A stretch of 64,000 nt of DNA from Pseudomonas avellanae BPIC 631 (GTDB lineage: Bacteria > Pseudomonadota > Gammaproteobacteria > Pseudomonadales > Pseudomonadaceae), in assembly GCF_000444135.1 (NCBI RefSeq), contig NZ_ATDK01000040.1, forward strand, positions 1 through 64,000, read 5' to 3'. Below the pieces are notes generated by a model. The model worked only from the letters and a program-made list of their open reading frames with translations. It was not told the DNA's origin and made no database searches. The position numbers and the translations under genes were made by a program. Numbering within the stretch: the first letter of the stretch is position 1; each line of letters starts with the position of its first letter. Positions 11,356 to 20,503 of the stretch are shown one piece after another.

Positions 11356-11886
11356 ATGGCTAAAATCGCCCCGCAACTGCCCATCGAAGTCGACAGCGAA
11401 ACCGGTGTCTGGACCTCCGATGCGTTGCCGATGCTCTACGTGCCGCGGCACTTTTTCGTCAACAACCACATGGGCATCGAAGAAGTGCTGGGCGCCGACG
11501 CGTACGCCGACATTCTCTACAAGGCCGGTTACAAATCCGCCTGGCACTGGTGTGAAAAAGAAGCTGAATGCCACGGCCTGCAAGGCGTTGCGGTATTCGA
11601 GCACTACATGAAGCGTCTGTCGCAGCGCGGCTGGGGGCTATTCAAGATTCAGGACATCGATATCGAAAAAGGCACCGCCAGCGTGAAGCTTGAGCATTCG
11701 TGCTTTGTGTACGTCTACGGCAAGGTCGGACGCAAGGTCGACTACATGTTCACCGGCTGGTTCGCCGGGGCGATGGACCAGATACTCGCCGCCAGCGGCA
11801 GCTCGATCCGTACCGTCGCCGAGCAGGTTTACGGTGGCTCCGAAGAAGGTCACGACGACGGACTGTTCGTCGTCAAGCCGCTGTAA
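11356..11886 (+). CDS. V4R-like / DUF5943 protein of the dimethylglycine operon
   Basis: A 176-residue cytoplasmic protein. The ATG at 11356 is used because TGGAG (11341-11345) precedes it; it begins MAKIAPQLPIEVDSETG. The C-terminal half (TASVKLEHSCFVYVYGKVGRK...) resembles the 4-vinyl-reductase (V4R) small-molecule-binding fold. No catalytic motif is evident. It lies between the M19-like gene and dgcA, 15 bases before dgcA, so it is almost certainly cotranscribed. Its function in betaine catabolism is unknown; a ligand-binding or accessory role is a guess. Confidence 0.75.
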   Translation: MAKIAPQLPIEVDSETGVWTSDALPMLYVPRHFFVNNHMGIEEVLGADAYADILYKAGYKSAWHWCEKEAECHGLQGVAVFEHYMKRLSQRGWGLFKIQDIDIEKGTASVKLEHSCFVYVYGKVGRKVDYMFTGWFAGAMDQILAASGSSIRTVAEQVYGGSEEGHDDGLFVVKPL

Positions 11887-14078: not shown

Positions 14079-16040
14079 ATGCTAGACACCCTTCTTCCCA
14101 TCCTGCTGTTCAGCGCCCTGGGCCTTGCGGCGCTGGGCGCATGGCGGCGGGTAAGCATGTGGCGCAACGGACGGCCCTCGAAAGTCGACCTGCTCGGCGG
14201 GCTGTTGGCCATGCCCAAGCGCTACATGGTCGACCTGCACCACGTAGTCGCACGCGATAAATATATCGCCAATACCCACGTGGCCACGGCAGGCGGCGCA
14301 GTCGCCTCGATTGTGCTGGCGATTCTGGTGCATGGTTTCGGCTTGCATAACCGGGTGCTGGGCTACGCGCTGCTGCTGATGACCACGGTGATGTTTGTCG
14401 GCGCGGTGTTTGTCTACCGACGTCGCCTCAACCCGCCTGCGCGTTTATCCAAAGGACCGTGGATGCGCCTGCCGAAAAGCCTGATGGCGTTTTCTGCAAG
14501 CTTCTTTCTGGTCACGTTGCCGGTAGCCGGTATTCTTCCCGAGCACTTCGGCGGCTGGGTGCTGGTCGCCATTCTCGTGCTGGGCGTGTTGTGGGGCGTG
14601 AGCGAGCTGTTCTTCGGCATGACCTGGGGCGGGCCGATGAAGCACGCTTTCGCCGGGGCCTTGCACCTGGCCTGGCATCGGCGTGCCGAGCGTTTTGGCG
14701 GCGGACGTTCCACCGGCCTGAAGCCACTTGATCTGAATGATCGGACTGCACCGCTGGGTGTCGAGAAACCCGCAGACTTTACCTGGAACCAGTTGCTGGG
14801 TTTCGACGCCTGCGTGCAGTGCGGTAAATGCGAAGCTGCGTGCCCGGCGTTCGCGGCAGGTCAGCCGCTGAACCCCAAGAAGCTGATCCAGGACATGGTC
14901 GTCGGCCTTGCCGGCGGCACCGACGCAACATTTGCCGGCAGCCCGTACCCATCGCTGGATGGCAAAGGCAAGCCACTGGGCGAGCATGGCGGCAACCCGC
15001 ATCAGCCCATCGTCAACGGTCTGGTGGATGCCGAGACGCTGTGGTCCTGTACCACCTGCCGCGCCTGTGTCGAAGAGTGCCCGATGATGATCGAGCACGT
15101 TGATGCCATCGTCGATATGCGCCGTTACCTGACCCTGGAAAAAGGCGCGACGCCGAACAAAGGCGCGCAAGTGCTGGATAACCTGATCGCCACCGACAAC
15201 CCCGGCGGTTTCGCACCGGGCGGGCGGATGAACTGGGCGGCGGATCTGAACCTGAACCTGCTCAGCGATACAAAGACCGTGGACGTGCTGTTCTGGGTGG
15301 GCGATGGCGCGTTCGACATGCGCAATCAACGCACGCTGCGTGCGTTCGTCAAAGTCCTCAAGGCCGCCAGGGTGGATTTCGCCGTGCTGGGCCTTGAAGA
15401 GCGCGACAGCGGTGACGTGGCTCGGCGTCTGGGCGATGAGGCGACGTTTCAGACGCTCGCCCGCCGCAACATTCAGACCCTGGCCCAATACCGCTTCAAA
15501 CGCATCGTCACCTGCGACCCGCACAGCTTTCATGTGCTGAAAAACGAATACGGCGCACTGGGCTGCGACTATCAGGTGCAGCATCACAGCACCTTCATGG
15601 CCGAATTGGTACAGCGCGGCGTCCTGAATCTGAGTCAACACAAAGGCGCCAGCGTCACCTATCACGACCCGTGTTACCTGGGCCGCTACAACGGCGAGTA
15701 CGAGGCTCCGCGTGAAGTGCTGCGCGCGCTGGGTATCGAGGTCAGGGAAATGCAGCGCTCGGGCTTTCGTTCTCGCTGCTGCGGTGGCGGGGGCGGCGCA
15801 CCGATTACAGACATCCCCGGCAAACAGCGGATTCCCGACATGCGCATGGACGACATTCGCGAAACCGCTGCCGAGCTGGTGGCGGTGGGCTGTCCACAAT
15901 GCACGGCCATGCTTGAAGGTGTGGTTGAACCGCGGCCGCTGATCAAGGACATCGCTGAACTGGTGGCCGATGCGCTGATTGAAGAAGTTATCCCCAGTCC
16001 GTCTGTTGCCGCCAAACGTGAACCTGCGGAGGTGCACTGA
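14079..16040 (+). CDS. dgcB: Dimethylglycine demethylase subunit DgcB
   Basis: A 653-residue membrane iron-sulfur protein; the ATG at 14079 with GAGG at 14067-14070 is preferred over the adjacent GTG. The N-terminal third has about four or five membrane segments. Two [4Fe-4S] motifs follow: C245xxC248xxC251xxxC255 (CVQCGKCEAACP) and CTTCRACVEECP. The C-terminal CCG-type domain has the RCCGGGGG signature. This layout (heterodisulfide-reductase/ETF-oxidoreductase-like) suits electron transfer from DgcA/ETF to the quinone pool. It overlaps the next gene (ATGA). Confidence 0.93.
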   Translation: MLDTLLPILLFSALGLAALGAWRRVSMWRNGRPSKVDLLGGLLAMPKRYMVDLHHVVARDKYIANTHVATAGGAVASIVLAILVHGFGLHNRVLGYALLLMTTVMFVGAVFVYRRRLNPPARLSKGPWMRLPKSLMAFSASFFLVTLPVAGILPEHFGGWVLVAILVLGVLWGVSELFFGMTWGGPMKHAFAGALHLAWHRRAERFGGGRSTGLKPLDLNDRTAPLGVEKPADFTWNQLLGFDACVQCGKCEAACPAFAAGQPLNPKKLIQDMVVGLAGGTDATFAGSPYPSLDGKGKPLGEHGGNPHQPIVNGLVDAETLWSCTTCRACVEECPMMIEHVDAIVDMRRYLTLEKGATPNKGAQVLDNLIATDNPGGFAPGGRMNWAADLNLNLLSDTKTVDVLFWVGDGAFDMRNQRTLRAFVKVLKAARVDFAVLGLEERDSGDVARRLGDEATFQTLARRNIQTLAQYRFKRIVTCDPHSFHVLKNEYGALGCDYQVQHHSTFMAELVQRGVLNLSQHKGASVTYHDPCYLGRYNGEYEAPREVLRALGIEVREMQRSGFRSRCCGGGGGAPITDIPGKQRIPDMRMDDIRETAAELVAVGCPQCTAMLEGVVEPRPLIKDIAELVADALIEEVIPSPSVAAKREPAEVH

Positions 16041-17260
16041 TGAGCGACATTATCCGCCGCGATCCTCGAGCTGAATGGATCGCTCGTAATCGGCTGCACC
16101 CGTTGCATGCGGCCATGCAGCCCGCACACAGCAACTGGATGGGACCCAACGGCTTGATGCGCAAGAACGTGCATGGCCTGGGGTTTATCGGCCCCAACGG
16201 CATCAAGCGCATCGACCGTAGCGGCGCGCAGCAGGGCGGGACGAGCAAGCGTTCGGCGGTGTCCGATGTGCAGTTGCCGGTGCATGTGGTTGCTGCGCCA
16301 GCGTTCTATATCAACGTTGTTCCCGACATGGTTGGCGGTCGCTTGAGCAGCCATGATCGCGACTTGTTGGGCCTTGCGCGTCAACTGGCCGGTGCCGAAG
16401 GCGCGGTGCTGGCGGTGGTGTTCGGCGAACATAAAGAGAAAGCGTTCGACAGTGCAGGTGTGGACCGGCTGTTGGCGCTCAATGGTAACGAGTTCGATGG
16501 CTACTCTCCTGAACAGCGCGTGCAGGGTTTGCGCGCTGTGGATAACCAGTTCGGCCCGCAGCACTGGTTATTCCCTGATAGCCGCACTGGCGGTGGTGAA
16601 CTGGGGCGGCGCTTTGCGGCCAGCCTTGGCGAGCGTCCTGCAACGCGGGTCTGGCAGGTCAAGGGCGAGCACTGCACAAGCCGCGCCGGGGCCGGCCGCG
16701 AAGACCTTGTTCGTCCCTTGGCGCGTTTGATTCTGGCCGACATCGAGTGCGCCGAGCCGGTCAGTGAAACCCGCCATGAAGCGTTGCCCGTCGAGTTATC
16801 CACAGGCACGGCGCGCCGCTTGTCGCGCATCGAAGACCTGGGCGCAGTGGCGGTTGATCCTGCAGTTATCCCCATGGCCGAAGCAGAATTCATTTTGTCC
16901 GGCGGTAATGGTGTGCGGGACTGGGCGCTTTTCCACCGCGCCGCTTTAGCCTTGGGCGCAACCGAGGGGGCGTCGCGGGTAGCGGTGGACGATGGTTTCA
17001 TGGGGCGTGAGCGTCAGGTGGGTGCCAGTGGCACGTGGGTCACGGCGCGGGTTTACCTGGCGGTCGGCATCTCCGGGGCGATTCAGCACCTGCAAGGTAT
17101 CGGCGCCTGCGACAAGGTCATAGCGATCAATCTGGATGCGGGCTGCGACATGATCAAGCGCGCTGATCTGTCGGTCATCGGCGACGGTGGCGAAATCCTC
17201 ACCGCATTGATTGCAGCGGTCCAAGCCTGGCGTAACGGGGAGAAGCGTGATGCGGCCTGA
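16040..17260 (+). CDS. Electron transfer flavoprotein, alpha-type subunit (dgc-associated)
   Basis: A 406-residue FAD-binding ETF alpha-family protein, longer than housekeeping EtfA. The C-terminal region shows the family's FAD-binding pattern (VGASGTWVTARVYLAVGISGAIQH, seen in two pieces around residues 325-350, and INLDAGCDMIKRADL). Its start codon overlaps the dgcB stop in ATGA with GGAGG upstream. It likely accepts electrons from dimethylglycine oxidation and passes them to DgcB. The reading frame also contains exact DnaA-box sequences at 16537 and 16796, the latter using the rare TTA leucine codon. Confidence 0.88.
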   Translation: MSDIIRRDPRAEWIARNRLHPLHAAMQPAHSNWMGPNGLMRKNVHGLGFIGPNGIKRIDRSGAQQGGTSKRSAVSDVQLPVHVVAAPAFYINVVPDMVGGRLSSHDRDLLGLARQLAGAEGAVLAVVFGEHKEKAFDSAGVDRLLALNGNEFDGYSPEQRVQGLRAVDNQFGPQHWLFPDSRTGGGELGRRFAASLGERPATRVWQVKGEHCTSRAGAGREDLVRPLARLILADIECAEPVSETRHEALPVELSTGTARRLSRIEDLGAVAVDPAVIPMAEAEFILSGGNGVRDWALFHRAALALGATEGASRVAVDDGFMGRERQVGASGTWVTARVYLAVGISGAIQHLQGIGACDKVIAINLDAGCDMIKRADLSVIGDGGEILTALIAAVQAWRNGEKRDAA

Positions 17261-18047
17261 CGTGTCTGTGGATAAATATGGCGTACAGATCATCAGCCTG
17301 GTCTCCGTAGGCGCGCACCCGACATCAGGCCGTGCGCGCCGCGCCGAACAGGACGCGCGGGCAGTCGAACTTGGCTTGCAACTGGTTGGGGATAACTTGC
17401 AGGTGCTGCATGCCGGCAACCCTGAAGAGCCAGCTTTGCGCGCCTACCTGGGCATGGGCTTGAGCGAACTGCATGTGCTTGAGCAGCCCGACGGTGCTGA
17501 CGCGCTGGCCGCGCTGACCGATTACATACGCAACTCCGGCGCACAGATGGTGCTGGCTGGCAGCCAGGCGGAAACCGGCGAAGGCTCGGGCATGCTGCCG
17601 TTTCTGCTGGCCGAAGGGCTTGGTTGGCCGCTGGTGACCGGGCTTGCGCAGGTCGAGTCGCTGAGTAATGGCATCGCACTGGTTTTGCAGGCATTGCCAC
17701 GTGGCCAGCGCCGTCGCCTCAAGGTTCGACTGCCGTTTCTCGCCACTGTGGATAACGCAGCGCCTGCGCCTCGGCAAAGTGCTTATGGGCCGGCGCAGCG
17801 CGGCTTGGTTGAGGTAGAAACTGTCGAAGCAGTTATTGATGAGTTATGCACAGCTCAATCACTGCGCCCCGCTAAACTGCGCCCCAAGCGTCTCAAGGTG
17901 ATCAAAGCCAAGAGCGGCGCTGACCGTATGAAAGCGGCTACTGCCAAGGCTAGCGGGGGCAGTGGGCAGGTGTTGAAGGGAGTAAGTGCGGAGGAAAGCG
18001 CGGCTGCAATATTGAAATTGCTGATTGAGGAAGGTGTTGTCAGGTGA
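17250..18047 (+). CDS. Electron transfer flavoprotein, beta-type subunit (dgc-associated)
   Basis: A 265-residue EtfB-family partner of the preceding alpha-type subunit. The ATG at 17250 is chosen because GGGGAG lies eight bases upstream and the coding regions overlap by 11 bases, as is usual in ETF operons. The adenine-nucleotide-binding core is recognisable (GAQMVLAGSQAETGEGSGMLPFLLA region, residues about 108-130). The C-terminal 60 residues are lysine- and alanine-rich. The gene carries DnaA-box matches at 17267, 17747 and 17844. It ends the dgc operon. Confidence 0.88.
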   Translation: MRPDVSVDKYGVQIISLVSVGAHPTSGRARRAEQDARAVELGLQLVGDNLQVLHAGNPEEPALRAYLGMGLSELHVLEQPDGADALAALTDYIRNSGAQMVLAGSQAETGEGSGMLPFLLAEGLGWPLVTGLAQVESLSNGIALVLQALPRGQRRRLKVRLPFLATVDNAAPAPRQSAYGPAQRGLVEVETVEAVIDELCTAQSLRPAKLRPKRLKVIKAKSGADRMKAATAKASGGSGQVLKGVSAEESAAAILKLLIEEGVVR

Positions 18048-18068
18048 GGCGTTCGACTTACGCACATT

Positions 18069-18500
18069 CTCTGTGCGTGCAGCTGTGGATAACATGTTTG
18101 CGGGTTGCCAGGCGCCCCGGATTGCGCGGCTTTGAAGGCCGTGATCATAAAACGAACAGTTTGCCGTAAAAGGCGGCTTATCCTGATTGTGGATAAAAAT
18201 CCCCTTCGGGGAGTGGGTTGGGTAATTGCCCACAATCTCTGTTGGTGTGCCTGTGGGTAAGTTGTTCATGGTTGTCTGCACGCCTTTAAATACGTGGCCT
18301 TTAAAGGTTTGTACAAAAAACGATCAAAGTTTGCGCCAGGTATGCCGGTTCCTTTCGCAGGCAGTGCGGGGGAATTGAGTCGAGTTTTCCACAGGGCATT
18401 TAATCTGCCGACTCAAGTTACTCCCAAAGTCTGTTGGTGCATCTGTGGATAAAGTGTTGGCGTCTGGCTGCAGCCTTTGAAATACGGGCTTTACAGTGAG
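18069..18500. other. Diverged tandem repeats each carrying a DnaA box
   Basis: This 568-base spacer between the ETF operon and the chitinase has no gene. Three diverged units (about 18069-18140, 18235-18306, 18430-18495) share the order: TCTGTTGGTG-like start, TGTGGATAA or TGTGGGTAA, a TCTGGCTGCA-like part, then CCTTTGAAATACG-like ends. Exact DnaA boxes lie at 18084-18092, 18188-18196 and 18444-18452, with near matches at 18252-18260 and 18385-18393. More exact boxes lie upstream inside the ETF genes (16537, 16796, 17267, 17747). A DnaA-binding or titrating locus is a reasonable hypothesis. Confidence 0.65.
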
Positions 18501-18569
18501 CTGGTTGAAAAGTAACCAGCTCATCTGTACACGCTGGCAATCACCTATGGAATTGCTTCATCACCCCCT

Positions 18570-18602
18570 ATTACCGGGAAGGTTTAGAAGCTCCCCGGTA
18601 AT
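18570..18602 (-). terminator. Hairpin past the chitinase stop
   Basis: Perfect nine-base arms ATTACCGGG (18570-18578) and CCCGGTAAT (18594-18602) around a 15-base loop, 14 bases past the chitinase stop codon. No T-run follows, so it may be a transcript-stabilising stem rather than a full terminator. Confidence 0.45.
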
Positions 18603-18615
18603 GGCGTTTGAGCTG

Positions 18616-20358
18616 TTAGTGTCTGGAACCCGCTGACCGCCCGAGTAACAACCACAACGACTCGGAGCCAGGTTTCTCTGGTGACCATTCCGGGATTGAT
18701 TTATGGGTCTGAAGGCATCTATAACTGATGCCCTGATGGGTTACCAAGTGACCTACCTGATACTGAACGCCTGGTGCCCACGCCGTGACGCCACCGCCGC
18801 TCTCGGATTCAGTTGTGACGGTCAGAGGTTCGCTTCCAGCGGAAAAGCCGTCCTTTTCGTCCTGCGCGATGATCTGGTACATATAGTCAGTGGCAGAAGT
18901 GAGTCCAGCGTCGGTATAGGTGGTTTGTGGCGAGGTGACAACAGCAATCCGCATCTGATTTCGGTGAACAAGGTACTGCCTGATGGTGTGCAGCCCTGTA
19001 GAAGCTGTCCATTCAAGGGACACGCTATAAGCAGAAATATCCGTTGCTTTAAGATCAGTCGGTGCTGATGGCGGTTGATTCTGATCCATATACACAGTCA
19101 GCACTGGGGACAAGTCCGATGTGTTGCCCTCGATGTCAGTCGCGCTGATCTGATAATCGTAGATAGCGCCAGGTGAAACATCTGTATCGATAAACGGTGG
19201 CGCCGTTGGAGTACCCACAAGCGCGCCGTTTCTGAACACATTATAGATTCGGACCGGGTGTGCACCTTCCGAAAGCCGCCAGATCAGCGTTATCGAATCT
19301 TTTGTTTGCCATGACAATGTAAGGTCAGCAGGTACTGAGGGTTTGTCCGGCACAGGCGTCTCACCTCCGGTCAGATAACCGTAGCGGTTCACGAACTCCC
19401 AGTTGTACTCCTTGCCATTCTTGTCTTTCCCGGCATCCCAGTTGACCGACCAGGTCATCAGACCACGGATTGGGTTTCCAGCATCTTTCAGTTCTTGCAG
19501 TGCGTCTTTGACGTCCTGTGGATTAACCACGTAACCGGTAGCGGCACCGTCATTATTGCTGGGTAGTCCAATCGCCAGCCTGTCAGCCGGAATCGATGCG
19601 TAACCACGTGTTCCGTGAATCAGGCTATCGGTCAGGTAATAAAGAAATGCTTTCTTTTGGGTGTCGTTGTTTTGAGTGACCCACAGGTTCAGTTCATCGA
19701 CCCAAATGCCATCGCCGCCCTGGTTGTAGTACTGAGGTGCGATAAAGTCGTACAGGTCTTCCAAGGCGTTGATGTAGGCGAGATAGGAGCCCGCTGCTCG
19801 CAGGTAGGGAAACTCCGGGGCCATACTGATAATGAAATGTTTTCCTTCTGCCTCGTAATGCTTGCGTACCAACCGCAGTGCGGCCGGTAATACCGTCCGG
19901 TTATCGGCAAAGGTAATGGCGGCTTGTTCAAGGTCGATGTCCAGGCCGTCAAAGCCATAGACTTCGACCAGGCGAATAATTTCATAGGCCAGTGCATCTT
20001 CCTGACCTTCATGCAGCTCAATATGTGCGTCAGCCCCACCAAGAGAAATAAGCACCGCACGGCCTTGTGCATTCAGCGCTGCTACTTGGGCGCGAAACGC
20101 ATCGTCACTCAGGTTGTAAGGTTTGAAGGTGGGAATGCCTGCACCTTTCATGAAGGCCACTGCCACGACGTTATAAGCCTCGGGAATATCTGTCAGCGCC
20201 ATCTCCTTGAACAGGCCCTGCTGGTAGCCCTGACCGGGTTCGGAAGGCCAGTTGTGCCAGAAGCCCATGAGAATATTTTTGCCTCTTATATCCGGCATGT
20301 CCGAGGCTGCGTCGACTTTCCTGTTTTTATATTGATTGATGATTTTTGGGTTGAGCAT
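18616..20358 (-). CDS. Chitinase, GH18 with two FnIII and a CBM5/12 domain
   Basis: A 580-residue endochitinase from the ATG at 20358 (GGAG upstream); the further upstream in-frame start has no ribosome site. The GH18 barrel (about 25-330) contains the catalytic DxxDxDxE motif DGLDIDLE with Glu144 as acid/base. Two fibronectin III domains follow (about 345-430 and 435-520). A C-terminal CBM5/12 chitin-binding domain comes last (AWAPGVQYQVGHLVTHQG, aromatic SLWLLL end). There is no signal peptide, as in P. aeruginosa ChiC, which is exported by a non-classical route. Base composition looks more AT-rich than flanking genes, and it splits the two betaine-catabolic blocks, suggesting acquisition. 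Confidence 0.93.
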   Translation of the reverse strand: MLNPKIINQYKNRKVDAASDMPDIRGKNILMGFWHNWPSEPGQGYQQGLFKEMALTDIPEAYNVVAVAFMKGAGIPTFKPYNLSDDAFRAQVAALNAQGRAVLISLGGADAHIELHEGQEDALAYEIIRLVEVYGFDGLDIDLEQAAITFADNRTVLPAALRLVRKHYEAEGKHFIISMAPEFPYLRAAGSYLAYINALEDLYDFIAPQYYNQGGDGIWVDELNLWVTQNNDTQKKAFLYYLTDSLIHGTRGYASIPADRLAIGLPSNNDGAATGYVVNPQDVKDALQELKDAGNPIRGLMTWSVNWDAGKDKNGKEYNWEFVNRYGYLTGGETPVPDKPSVPADLTLSWQTKDSITLIWRLSEGAHPVRIYNVFRNGALVGTPTAPPFIDTDVSPGAIYDYQISATDIEGNTSDLSPVLTVYMDQNQPPSAPTDLKATDISAYSVSLEWTASTGLHTIRQYLVHRNQMRIAVVTSPQTTYTDAGLTSATDYMYQIIAQDEKDGFSAGSEPLTVTTESESGGGVTAWAPGVQYQVGHLVTHQGISYRCLQTHKSIPEWSPEKPGSESLWLLLGRSAGSRH

Positions 20359-20503
20359 GGTTCGTGTCTCCGTCCGTTGGATTGACTTCAATGGGAGTTG
20401 ATCACGAAAGGATTTTTCACGTAACTGTCAGAAATGACGGTATCGGCGGAGCAATTGTTGTGCAGGGGAGCGGGAAAGTCGTCAGTCGACGATCATGCGA
20501 GCA

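Follow-up and report, generated by a model that had tools for sequence, protein, structure and literature searches.

The spacer that follows the electron transfer flavoprotein genes etfA and etfB of Pseudomonas avellanae BPIC 631 (positions 18048–18615) probably carries a tandem array of three DnaA-control modules of the DARS (DnaA-reactivating sequence) type. Sequence comparison leads us to give this reading a probability of about 0.6. Positions refer to a window of 64,000 nt of contig NZ_ATDK01000040.1 (C40 in the genome listing), and the genome that was scanned comprises 610 contigs and 5.96 Mb. The DARS-type array is the best reading because of the box geometry, the homology to Escherichia coli DARS1, the Fis-like site, and the conservation of the units. 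The array is classed as a variant of the DARS type, neither canonical nor proven, which probably works like DARS; it is not filed as canonical because its box II fails the consensus and IHF sites are absent. Papers are cited by PMC number, each for the passages that bear on the point.

Three modules of about 101 bp lie in tandem within the spacer and together span 18058–18517. In each of them, box I (+) is followed after 5 bp by box II (−) and after a further 3 bp by box III (−), and then by a dyad region and a Fis-like 15-mer. The consensus of the unit reads TTRCCCACA, 5 bp, TGTKGGNNN, 3 bp, TGTGGATAA, about 15 partly conserved bp, the dyad, and the 15-mer. The dyad region is of the type CTGCAAGCC-N11-GGCTTGCAG, and is imperfect in many units, module 1 included. 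Module 1 (18058–18157, +) comprises box I at 18058–18066 (+, one mismatch), box II at 18072–18080 (−, three mismatches), an exact box III at 18084–18092 (−), a dyad region at 18108–18136, and the 15-mer at 18143–18157. Module 2 (18226–18325, +) has box I at 18226–18234 with two mismatches, box II at 18240–18248 with four, and box III at 18252–18260 (TGTGGGTAA, one mismatch), with the dyad region at 18276–18304 and the 15-mer at 18311–18325. In module 3 (18418–18517, +), box I (18418–18426) again has two mismatches and box II (18432–18440) four, box III (18444–18452) is exact, and the dyad region and 15-mer occupy 18468–18496 and 18503–18517. The exact boxes at 18084 and 18444 are therefore box III of modules 1 and 3. 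Two further boxes were found between the modules in the window scan: an exact one at 18188–18196 (−), between modules 1 and 2, and a TTTTCCACA box at 18385–18393 (+), between modules 2 and 3. The former type also occurs in some relatives, about 105 bp past box III of module 1 (e.g., loci L009, L011, and L033). A repeat finder that is blind to DnaA picks out these three units too, at intervals of 168 and 192 bp. The units have 44–54% G+C within a window of 60% G+C, and the array is non-coding: etfB ends at 18047, the next gene, on the minus strand, ends at 18616, and the overlapping open reading frames listed there are mechanical.

These modules account for part of a dense cluster of DnaA boxes. 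A scan of both strands of the 64 kb gives seven exact copies of TTATCCACA, described as the high-affinity DnaA box of P. putida (PMC4285127), at 16537 (−), 16796 (+), 17267 (−), 17747 (−), 18084 (−), 18188 (−), and 18444 (−). An initial annotation of this DNA had listed the same seven positions and had found no exact copy elsewhere in the window, and the scan agrees on both counts. The looser pattern TTWTNCACA adds two sites within the cluster that had also been noticed, 17844 and 18385, both on the + strand, and three outside it (11551, 22718, and 29115). Sixteen one-mismatch sites occur in the window (23 listed, less the seven exact boxes); the previously reported 15988, 16866, and 18252 are among them, and the site reported at 17388 lies at 17387 here. 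The whole genome has 119 exact boxes in 5.96 Mb. The genome mean predicts 0.04 boxes per 1.9 kb (Poisson probability of seven or more, ~2e-14) and a Markov-1 model predicts 0.005, both expectations ignoring any enrichment near oriC; set against the seven observed, they bear out the statement that chance predicts far less than one. Among the 100 of the 119 genome boxes that were listed, seven in 2 kb are reached nowhere else. Within that same list, five exact boxes fall within 1.92 kb on contig C217, which carries dnaA, and another five within 1.35 kb on contig C298, so the etf cluster is not unique in kind within the genome. As a separate observation, C298:1683–11933 (locus L093) holds ten exact DnaA boxes in about 10 kb. 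The etf cluster is made up of a repeated module of about 101 bp plus separately conserved boxes in coding sequence, rather than of loose box density.

The array recurs among relatives. Many of them carry regularly spaced boxes in the − orientation after etfB, even with several kb in between, and units were seen in 95 of 120 fetched loci (two units in one, three in 28, and four in 66). A set of 275 box III candidates, 252 of which have CTGT upstream, was reduced to 79 diverse units; for alignment A1, L022:7393, L025:10045, and L058:6994 were dropped and the three window units added. The conservation of box III and CTGT in A1 is partly due to this selection, and that of the Fis-like part is not. 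A weight matrix found 353 etf-array units, window included, 339 of which have a box III without mismatch to TTWTNCACA. At other Pseudomonas loci, there are 26 units, after three etf-array units of KUIN-1 (in L154) were left out of 29. When offsets upstream of box III are ranked by fit to a DnaA box in alignment A3 (31 units), boxes I and II take the top two places. The non-etf units also have a possible fourth box (−) just past box III, at about +11 (two or fewer mismatches in 9 of 26). An RNA element was considered and rejected: RNAalifold on A1 gave no compensatory pair. Rfam searched over 15000–20000 returned no match up to E 1, and BLASTn of the spacer against plasmids returned none.

The 15-mer that closes each unit follows the pattern G-N-N-Y-R-N5-Y-R-N-N-C with an A/T-rich middle, which resembles the Fis consensus GnnYAnnnnnTRnnC (PMC8682772, PMC4585315). 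Its G and C stand 14 bp apart in all 353 etf-array units, at one of two neighbouring offsets; the full Y-R/Y-R pattern is present in 352 and the strict Fis consensus in 143. The corresponding counts for the 26 units at other Pseudomonas loci are 26, 23, and 10. The 353-unit weight matrix itself includes the Fis-like part; the 79 A1 units, chosen without that part, keep the G and C in 79 of 79. By comparison, 0.6% of positions in the window fit the relaxed pattern and 0.09% the strict one. Separately, 116 of 275 etf units have a DnaA-box-like sequence that overlaps the Fis-like site, about +58 from the start of box III, which recalls the DnaA-box/Fis overlap of E. coli DARS2 in PMC8682772.

The spacing of the units in etf arrays also shows a pattern. 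Spacings number 257, with values of 117, 128–129, 148–151, 159–162, 170–173, 181–183, and 192–194 bp, together with the exceptions 166, 168, and 169; taking 10.7 bp as one turn, 254 of them deviate from a whole number of turns by no more than 0.2 turn. The phasing resultant is 0.70 at 10.8 bp for the 24 distinct values and 0.94 at 10.6–10.8 bp for all values. Helical phasing of the etf arrays is graded as suggestive, because the species are related and the period was scanned. Phasing at the non-etf loci was tried and rejected, as spacings of about 113 and 134 bp misfit 10.7 bp.

Comparison with E. coli was made on the DARS1 and DARS2 regions of MG1655 (16 kb in total), which we take to lie in the bioD–uvrB spacer and the rppH–mutH region, respectively. 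In a variable-gap scan of this DNA, each of the two loci showed the order box I(+), N5, box II(−), N3, box III(−). For DARS2, the scan returned the site in a second, N7 register as well, along with one weaker place in that stretch. This is the arrangement described in PMC5742627, where DARS1 and DARS2 share the three-box spacing, with box I opposite to II and III, and where DARS1 is 101 bp long with a regulatory region of ~50 bp that aids ADP release in vitro. All three window modules have this geometry (N5, N3, and orientation). When the window is scanned with a generic consensus at DARS spacing, module 1 comes first (four mismatches) and module 3 second (six), and module 2 ties with one other place at seven.

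The likeness to DARS1 extends beyond the boxes. Model R2, built from 31 Pseudomonas units only, has a single match in the 16 kb of E. coli DNA, and this is DARS1, over 83 positions without a gap (E 6.4e-4, a value that holds for the 16 kb searched). With a matrix of the 26 non-etf units, positions 37–84 of DARS1 score 8.0 bits, equalled by a fraction of 0.00006 of 31,912 E. coli windows, the best value among the three matrices and four regions tried at box-fixed register for DARS1 and DARS2; for positions 37–102, the fraction is 0.0004. The DARS1-like regulatory flank is found through a model of Pseudomonas units alone, and is weaker when only etf units are used. Box orientation, N5/N3 spacing, a size of about 101 bp, a regulatory flank of ~50 bp, and a non-coding position are shared with DARS1 (PMC5742627), and the DARS1 dyad, GCAAGC-N13-GCTTGC, stands at the place of the Pseudomonas dyad. 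DARS2 has the same core geometry, and Fis is involved in it (PMC4245941, PMC8682772).

The proteins that such a site would call for are encoded in this genome. In domain IV of its DnaA, 74 of 94 residues are identical and all eight positions that we take to be box contacts are kept; K178, R285, and R334 are present in the protein as well. Hda and Fis genes are present, both past NCBIfam cut-offs.

Boxes upstream of the spacer lie in etfA (16040–17260, +; NF051845, 694 bits, cut-off 600) and etfB (17250–18047, +; NF051844, 410 bits, cut-off 350); the closest named match of EtfB is from a P. syringae pathovar, at 93% identity, with the genome's own record possibly left out, which puts the window in or near the P. 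syringae group. Their conservation was followed over 120 aligned loci, 80 named and 40 from fetched genomes. The box at 16537–16545 (−), over codons A-V-D-N of etfA, is exact in 103 loci, out of 111 with the same residues. At 16796–16804 (+), where etfA reads TTA TCC ACA (L-S-T), the box is exact in 97 loci, out of 109 with LST. At the start of etfB (17267–17275, −), alignment extends to 28 loci, 19 of which have the exact box, and the box at 17747–17755 (−, T-V-D-N in etfB) is exact in 80 loci, out of 111 with the same residues. A TTATGCACA box in etfB (17844–17852, +) includes Leu199, which is encoded by TTA in 30 loci and is Leu in 112. When the codons of etfA and etfB were shuffled 5000 times, the four exact boxes observed compared with a maximum of two, and with zero in 4660 shuffles; three neighbouring genes have no boxes in the same comparison. 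From the codon use of the etf genes, TTA TCC ACA is expected at about 0.05% of LST sites, and is seen at 97 of 109. Since the aligned loci are related rather than independent events, the other Leu sites of etfA and etfB served as a control: among 64 conserved Leu sites, the 16796 box is the only one with TTA as the commonest codon, and the next-highest use of TTA is at EtfB Leu199, that is, in the 17844 box. The earlier remark that boxes here use the rare codon TTA applies to these two, both of which lie on the + strand and are not reverse-oriented as had been stated; the accompanying suggestion of selection on the DNA withstands the codon shuffles, the 120 loci, and the Leu-site control. On these alignments, the four exact boxes in etfA and etfB are kept in the DNA beyond the need of the protein. 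They would represent extra selected DnaA sites belonging to the etf-array locus, and the probability given at the outset applies to this claim and the DARS-type reading jointly.

Further support for DARS-type modules comes from related units at four other places in the genome. Pairs are found in spacers at C13:26807–27261, C82:7053–7355, and C213:54001–54213 (L094, L095, and L101), and a lone unit on C259 (L194, ~243–332) has an internal deletion and retains the Fis-like site. The pair on C13 is flanked by livF-like and ydfG-like genes and that on C82 by a YigZ-like gene and an ABC ATPase (all below NCBIfam cut-offs); the C213 pair adjoins rarD, and a P. protegens unit has galE as its neighbour. 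When model R1 was run over 35 genomes, no genome had a best match weaker than E 5.3e-6. Units occupy five places in P. protegens FD6 (G121): the etf array, with four units, and four pairs, which lie at about +10.6%, +12.7%, −9.0%, and −13.4% of the genome from dnaA. KUIN-1 has four such places and a lone match near 39%; this match, at 3650966, lies near the terminus and is similar to the lone unit on C259.

The window genome is in pieces, and distances from dnaA come from other genomes. Of 47 non-etf matches among those listed, 45 were placed, and 42 of these are at 9–15% of the genome from dnaA, on both arms, with the others at 15.9, 17.0, and 34.3%. The two left out are the C82 match of the window genome, which has no dnaA on its contig, and G034:145316, which by hand is ~832 kb, roughly 14%, from dnaA. 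Among the 25 complete array-bearing genomes fetched, etfB is separated from dnaA by 5.9–9.9% of the genome in 24 and by 17.0% in the remaining one. This distance was rejected as independent evidence, as etfB is placed much the same in species that lack the array.

At E ≤ 1e-3, the family gives matches to model R2 in 118 of 119 genomes, with 19 of 19 genera represented, and the wider class in 120 of 232 genomes; both figures take in the window genome, and the E-values are rough. Among 29 class-level loci (window genome excluded, one of the same family), 24 have at most three mismatches over the three boxes at N5/N3, and at most one does at any of eight other spacings; the loci were picked by a model with that geometry, so the figure is a description rather than an independent test. 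DARS-like trios in Gammaproteobacteria (L164–L192), many with strong boxes I, II, and III, are a related observation. Relatives of E. coli uvrB, bioD, mutH, and rppH were sought in 30 class-level loci, and because only one weak uvrB match was found, these loci are not regarded as lying at the E. coli DARS places. Tentatively, and with less confidence than the reading of the array itself, DARS recharging may be ancestral in Gammaproteobacteria rather than peculiar to E. coli relatives. Pseudomonas may have expanded it to about five loci and about 12 modules, on both arms at 8–14% from oriC, as a dosage-linked timing device, with the etf array, its box II weakened and its tandem units in helical phase, as a derived member that is possibly opposite-acting or titrating.

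Several observations weigh against a DARS-type array. Box II has three, four, and four mismatches in the window modules, and so falls short of a usable DnaA box. It has two or fewer mismatches in only 5 of 353 etf-array units (9 of 26 at other Pseudomonas loci), and its offset is outside the eight best box offsets in etf units; box II fits better at the other Pseudomonas loci and at class-level loci than in the window array. The strong box of the array is box III, whereas in E. coli DARS1 it is box II, and E. coli box III is weak. In E. coli DARS, boxes I and II are the working pair. Because that pair includes the box that is weak here, the sign or strength of the array's activity could differ. 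Confidence is also lowered slightly because the 15-mer, at +50 in each window module, misses the strict Fis consensus by one base. The IHF consensus, with up to one mismatch allowed, is absent from the array, and its sole match in 16400–18700, at 17200, is inside etfA. Of the two spacings in the window, 192 bp is in phase and 168 bp is out of phase. The fetched stretch is devoid of units at 12 of the 40 loci taken from genomes and at 13 of the 80 named ones, and some arrays sit beyond the fetched stretch, as in KUIN-1 (in L154) and G017. E. coli DARS1 is a single core, as opposed to the tandem of three here, its chromosome position differs, and it has no match where the array has its Fis-like site (26–34% of E. 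coli windows score as well); with the etf-array matrix alone, its dyad region reaches a fraction of only 0.0045. The flank of DARS2 does not match the Pseudomonas units, dyad region included, and the place of its strict Fis match, +110 relative to box III, differs from the +50 seen here. DARS2 also needs IHF (PMC4245941, PMC8682772), for which the array has no consensus.

If the array is of the DARS type, DnaA would occupy boxes I and III and, through cooperativity, the weak box II as well. With boxes I and II in opposite orientation, the AAA+ domains of two DnaA molecules would be brought head to head, in the manner of E. coli DARS, loosening the bound ADP. Fis, 50 bp past box III, might bend the dyad region back onto the DnaA complex, and its binding would make the site respond to growth phase. 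The tandem units may act together, given their whole-helical-turn spacing in many relatives. The outcome would be regeneration of ATP-DnaA, together with a measure of titration, by a locus that is copied early in the cell cycle. Binding of DnaA and Fis, nucleotide exchange, and an effect on timing are what we infer from the sequence.

The main rival, to which we give roughly a third of the credence of the DARS-type reading, is a titration sink: DnaA bound at the boxes would be withdrawn from the free pool up to the time of locus duplication, nucleotide exchange would play no part, and the fixed trio and Fis-like site would be there just for cooperative binding. For the E. coli chromosome, titration has been argued in PMC12371093. 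The strength of box III (a TTWTNCACA match in 339 of 353 etf units), the weakness of box II, and the extra selected boxes in coding sequence would all suit a sink. However, a sink needs no N5/N3 geometry, no dyad, and no Fis-like site at one fixed distance, nor need it resemble DARS1 outside the boxes.

It is unlikely that the array acts in the opposite direction, like datA, with DnaA and a bending protein promoting ATP hydrolysis and lowering ATP-DnaA. The locus datA, too, is non-coding, carries DnaA boxes, and lies fairly close to oriC. A datA-like site would fit both the placement of etfB at 5.9–9.9% from dnaA in 24 of 25 array genomes and a box II that differs from DARS. That position may be gene synteny, however, as etfB is similarly placed in array-less species. 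Furthermore, datA works with IHF (PMC5742627), and the array has no IHF consensus, Fis-like sites instead, and homology to DARS1. The initial annotation had likened the cluster to datA and DARS alike; the DARS half of this comparison is supported by the geometry, the DARS1 homology, the Fis-like 15-mer, and the conservation, and the datA half is not supported, as the array has no IHF consensus.

Slightly less probable again is a role in transcription, with DnaA and Fis controlling the etf and gbc genes. The array does lie between etfB and gbcA, with one other gene intervening. Yet no promoter-like site was found in a scan of 17900–18700 (one terminator-like site is at chance level), the array stays intact where kilobases separate it from etfB (e.g., L067, KUIN-1, and G017), and the units found elsewhere adjoin genes of other kinds. 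Neutral repeats or a protein-driven artefact, such as repetitive extragenic palindromic (REP)-like elements or codon bias, are very improbable: units are repeated within one genome and coding boxes can follow from protein motifs, but codon shuffles and site-by-site codon use contradict protein constraint, loci are few per genome, and R2 matches almost every genome and all genera of the family. An auxiliary replication origin, for which the many DnaA boxes in a spacer whose units are lower in G+C than the window could speak, is just as improbable, as dnaA and its own box cluster are on another contig, no IHF consensus was found, and the modules are dispersed on both arms.

Among the papers listed by a search limited to open-access literature, none concerned datA or DARS in Pseudomonas. 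The genus goes unmentioned in the main text of PMC12371093, PMC13220808, and PMC5742627, and is not among the seven related species in the comparison given in PMC8682772. Fis and the DARS2 core are described as conserved specifically among gamma-proteobacteria related to E. coli (PMC4245941), and the array bears on DnaA switching and recharging outside these relatives. If its function is DARS-like, Pseudomonas may have a replication-timing system so far described only in E. coli relatives, and its replication-timing loci would then be mapped and open to deletion one at a time. The regulatory flank of DARS1, the in vivo role of which is given as undetermined in PMC5742627, gains a conserved dyad to mutate, and the 102-position model allows a search for DARS-type sites across Gammaproteobacteria.

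Two minor observations concern the surroundings of the array. At 11550–11610 of the window, model R2 has a weak match (E 0.0027) that covers the flank part only, at TGTGAAAAA, and is probably due to chance. The gene to the right of the array (18616–20391, −) resembles, by reading, a secreted chitinase with fibronectin-type repeats; its NCBIfam match is an exoglucanase, far below cut-off, and it occupies the place of a fourth unit in some relatives.

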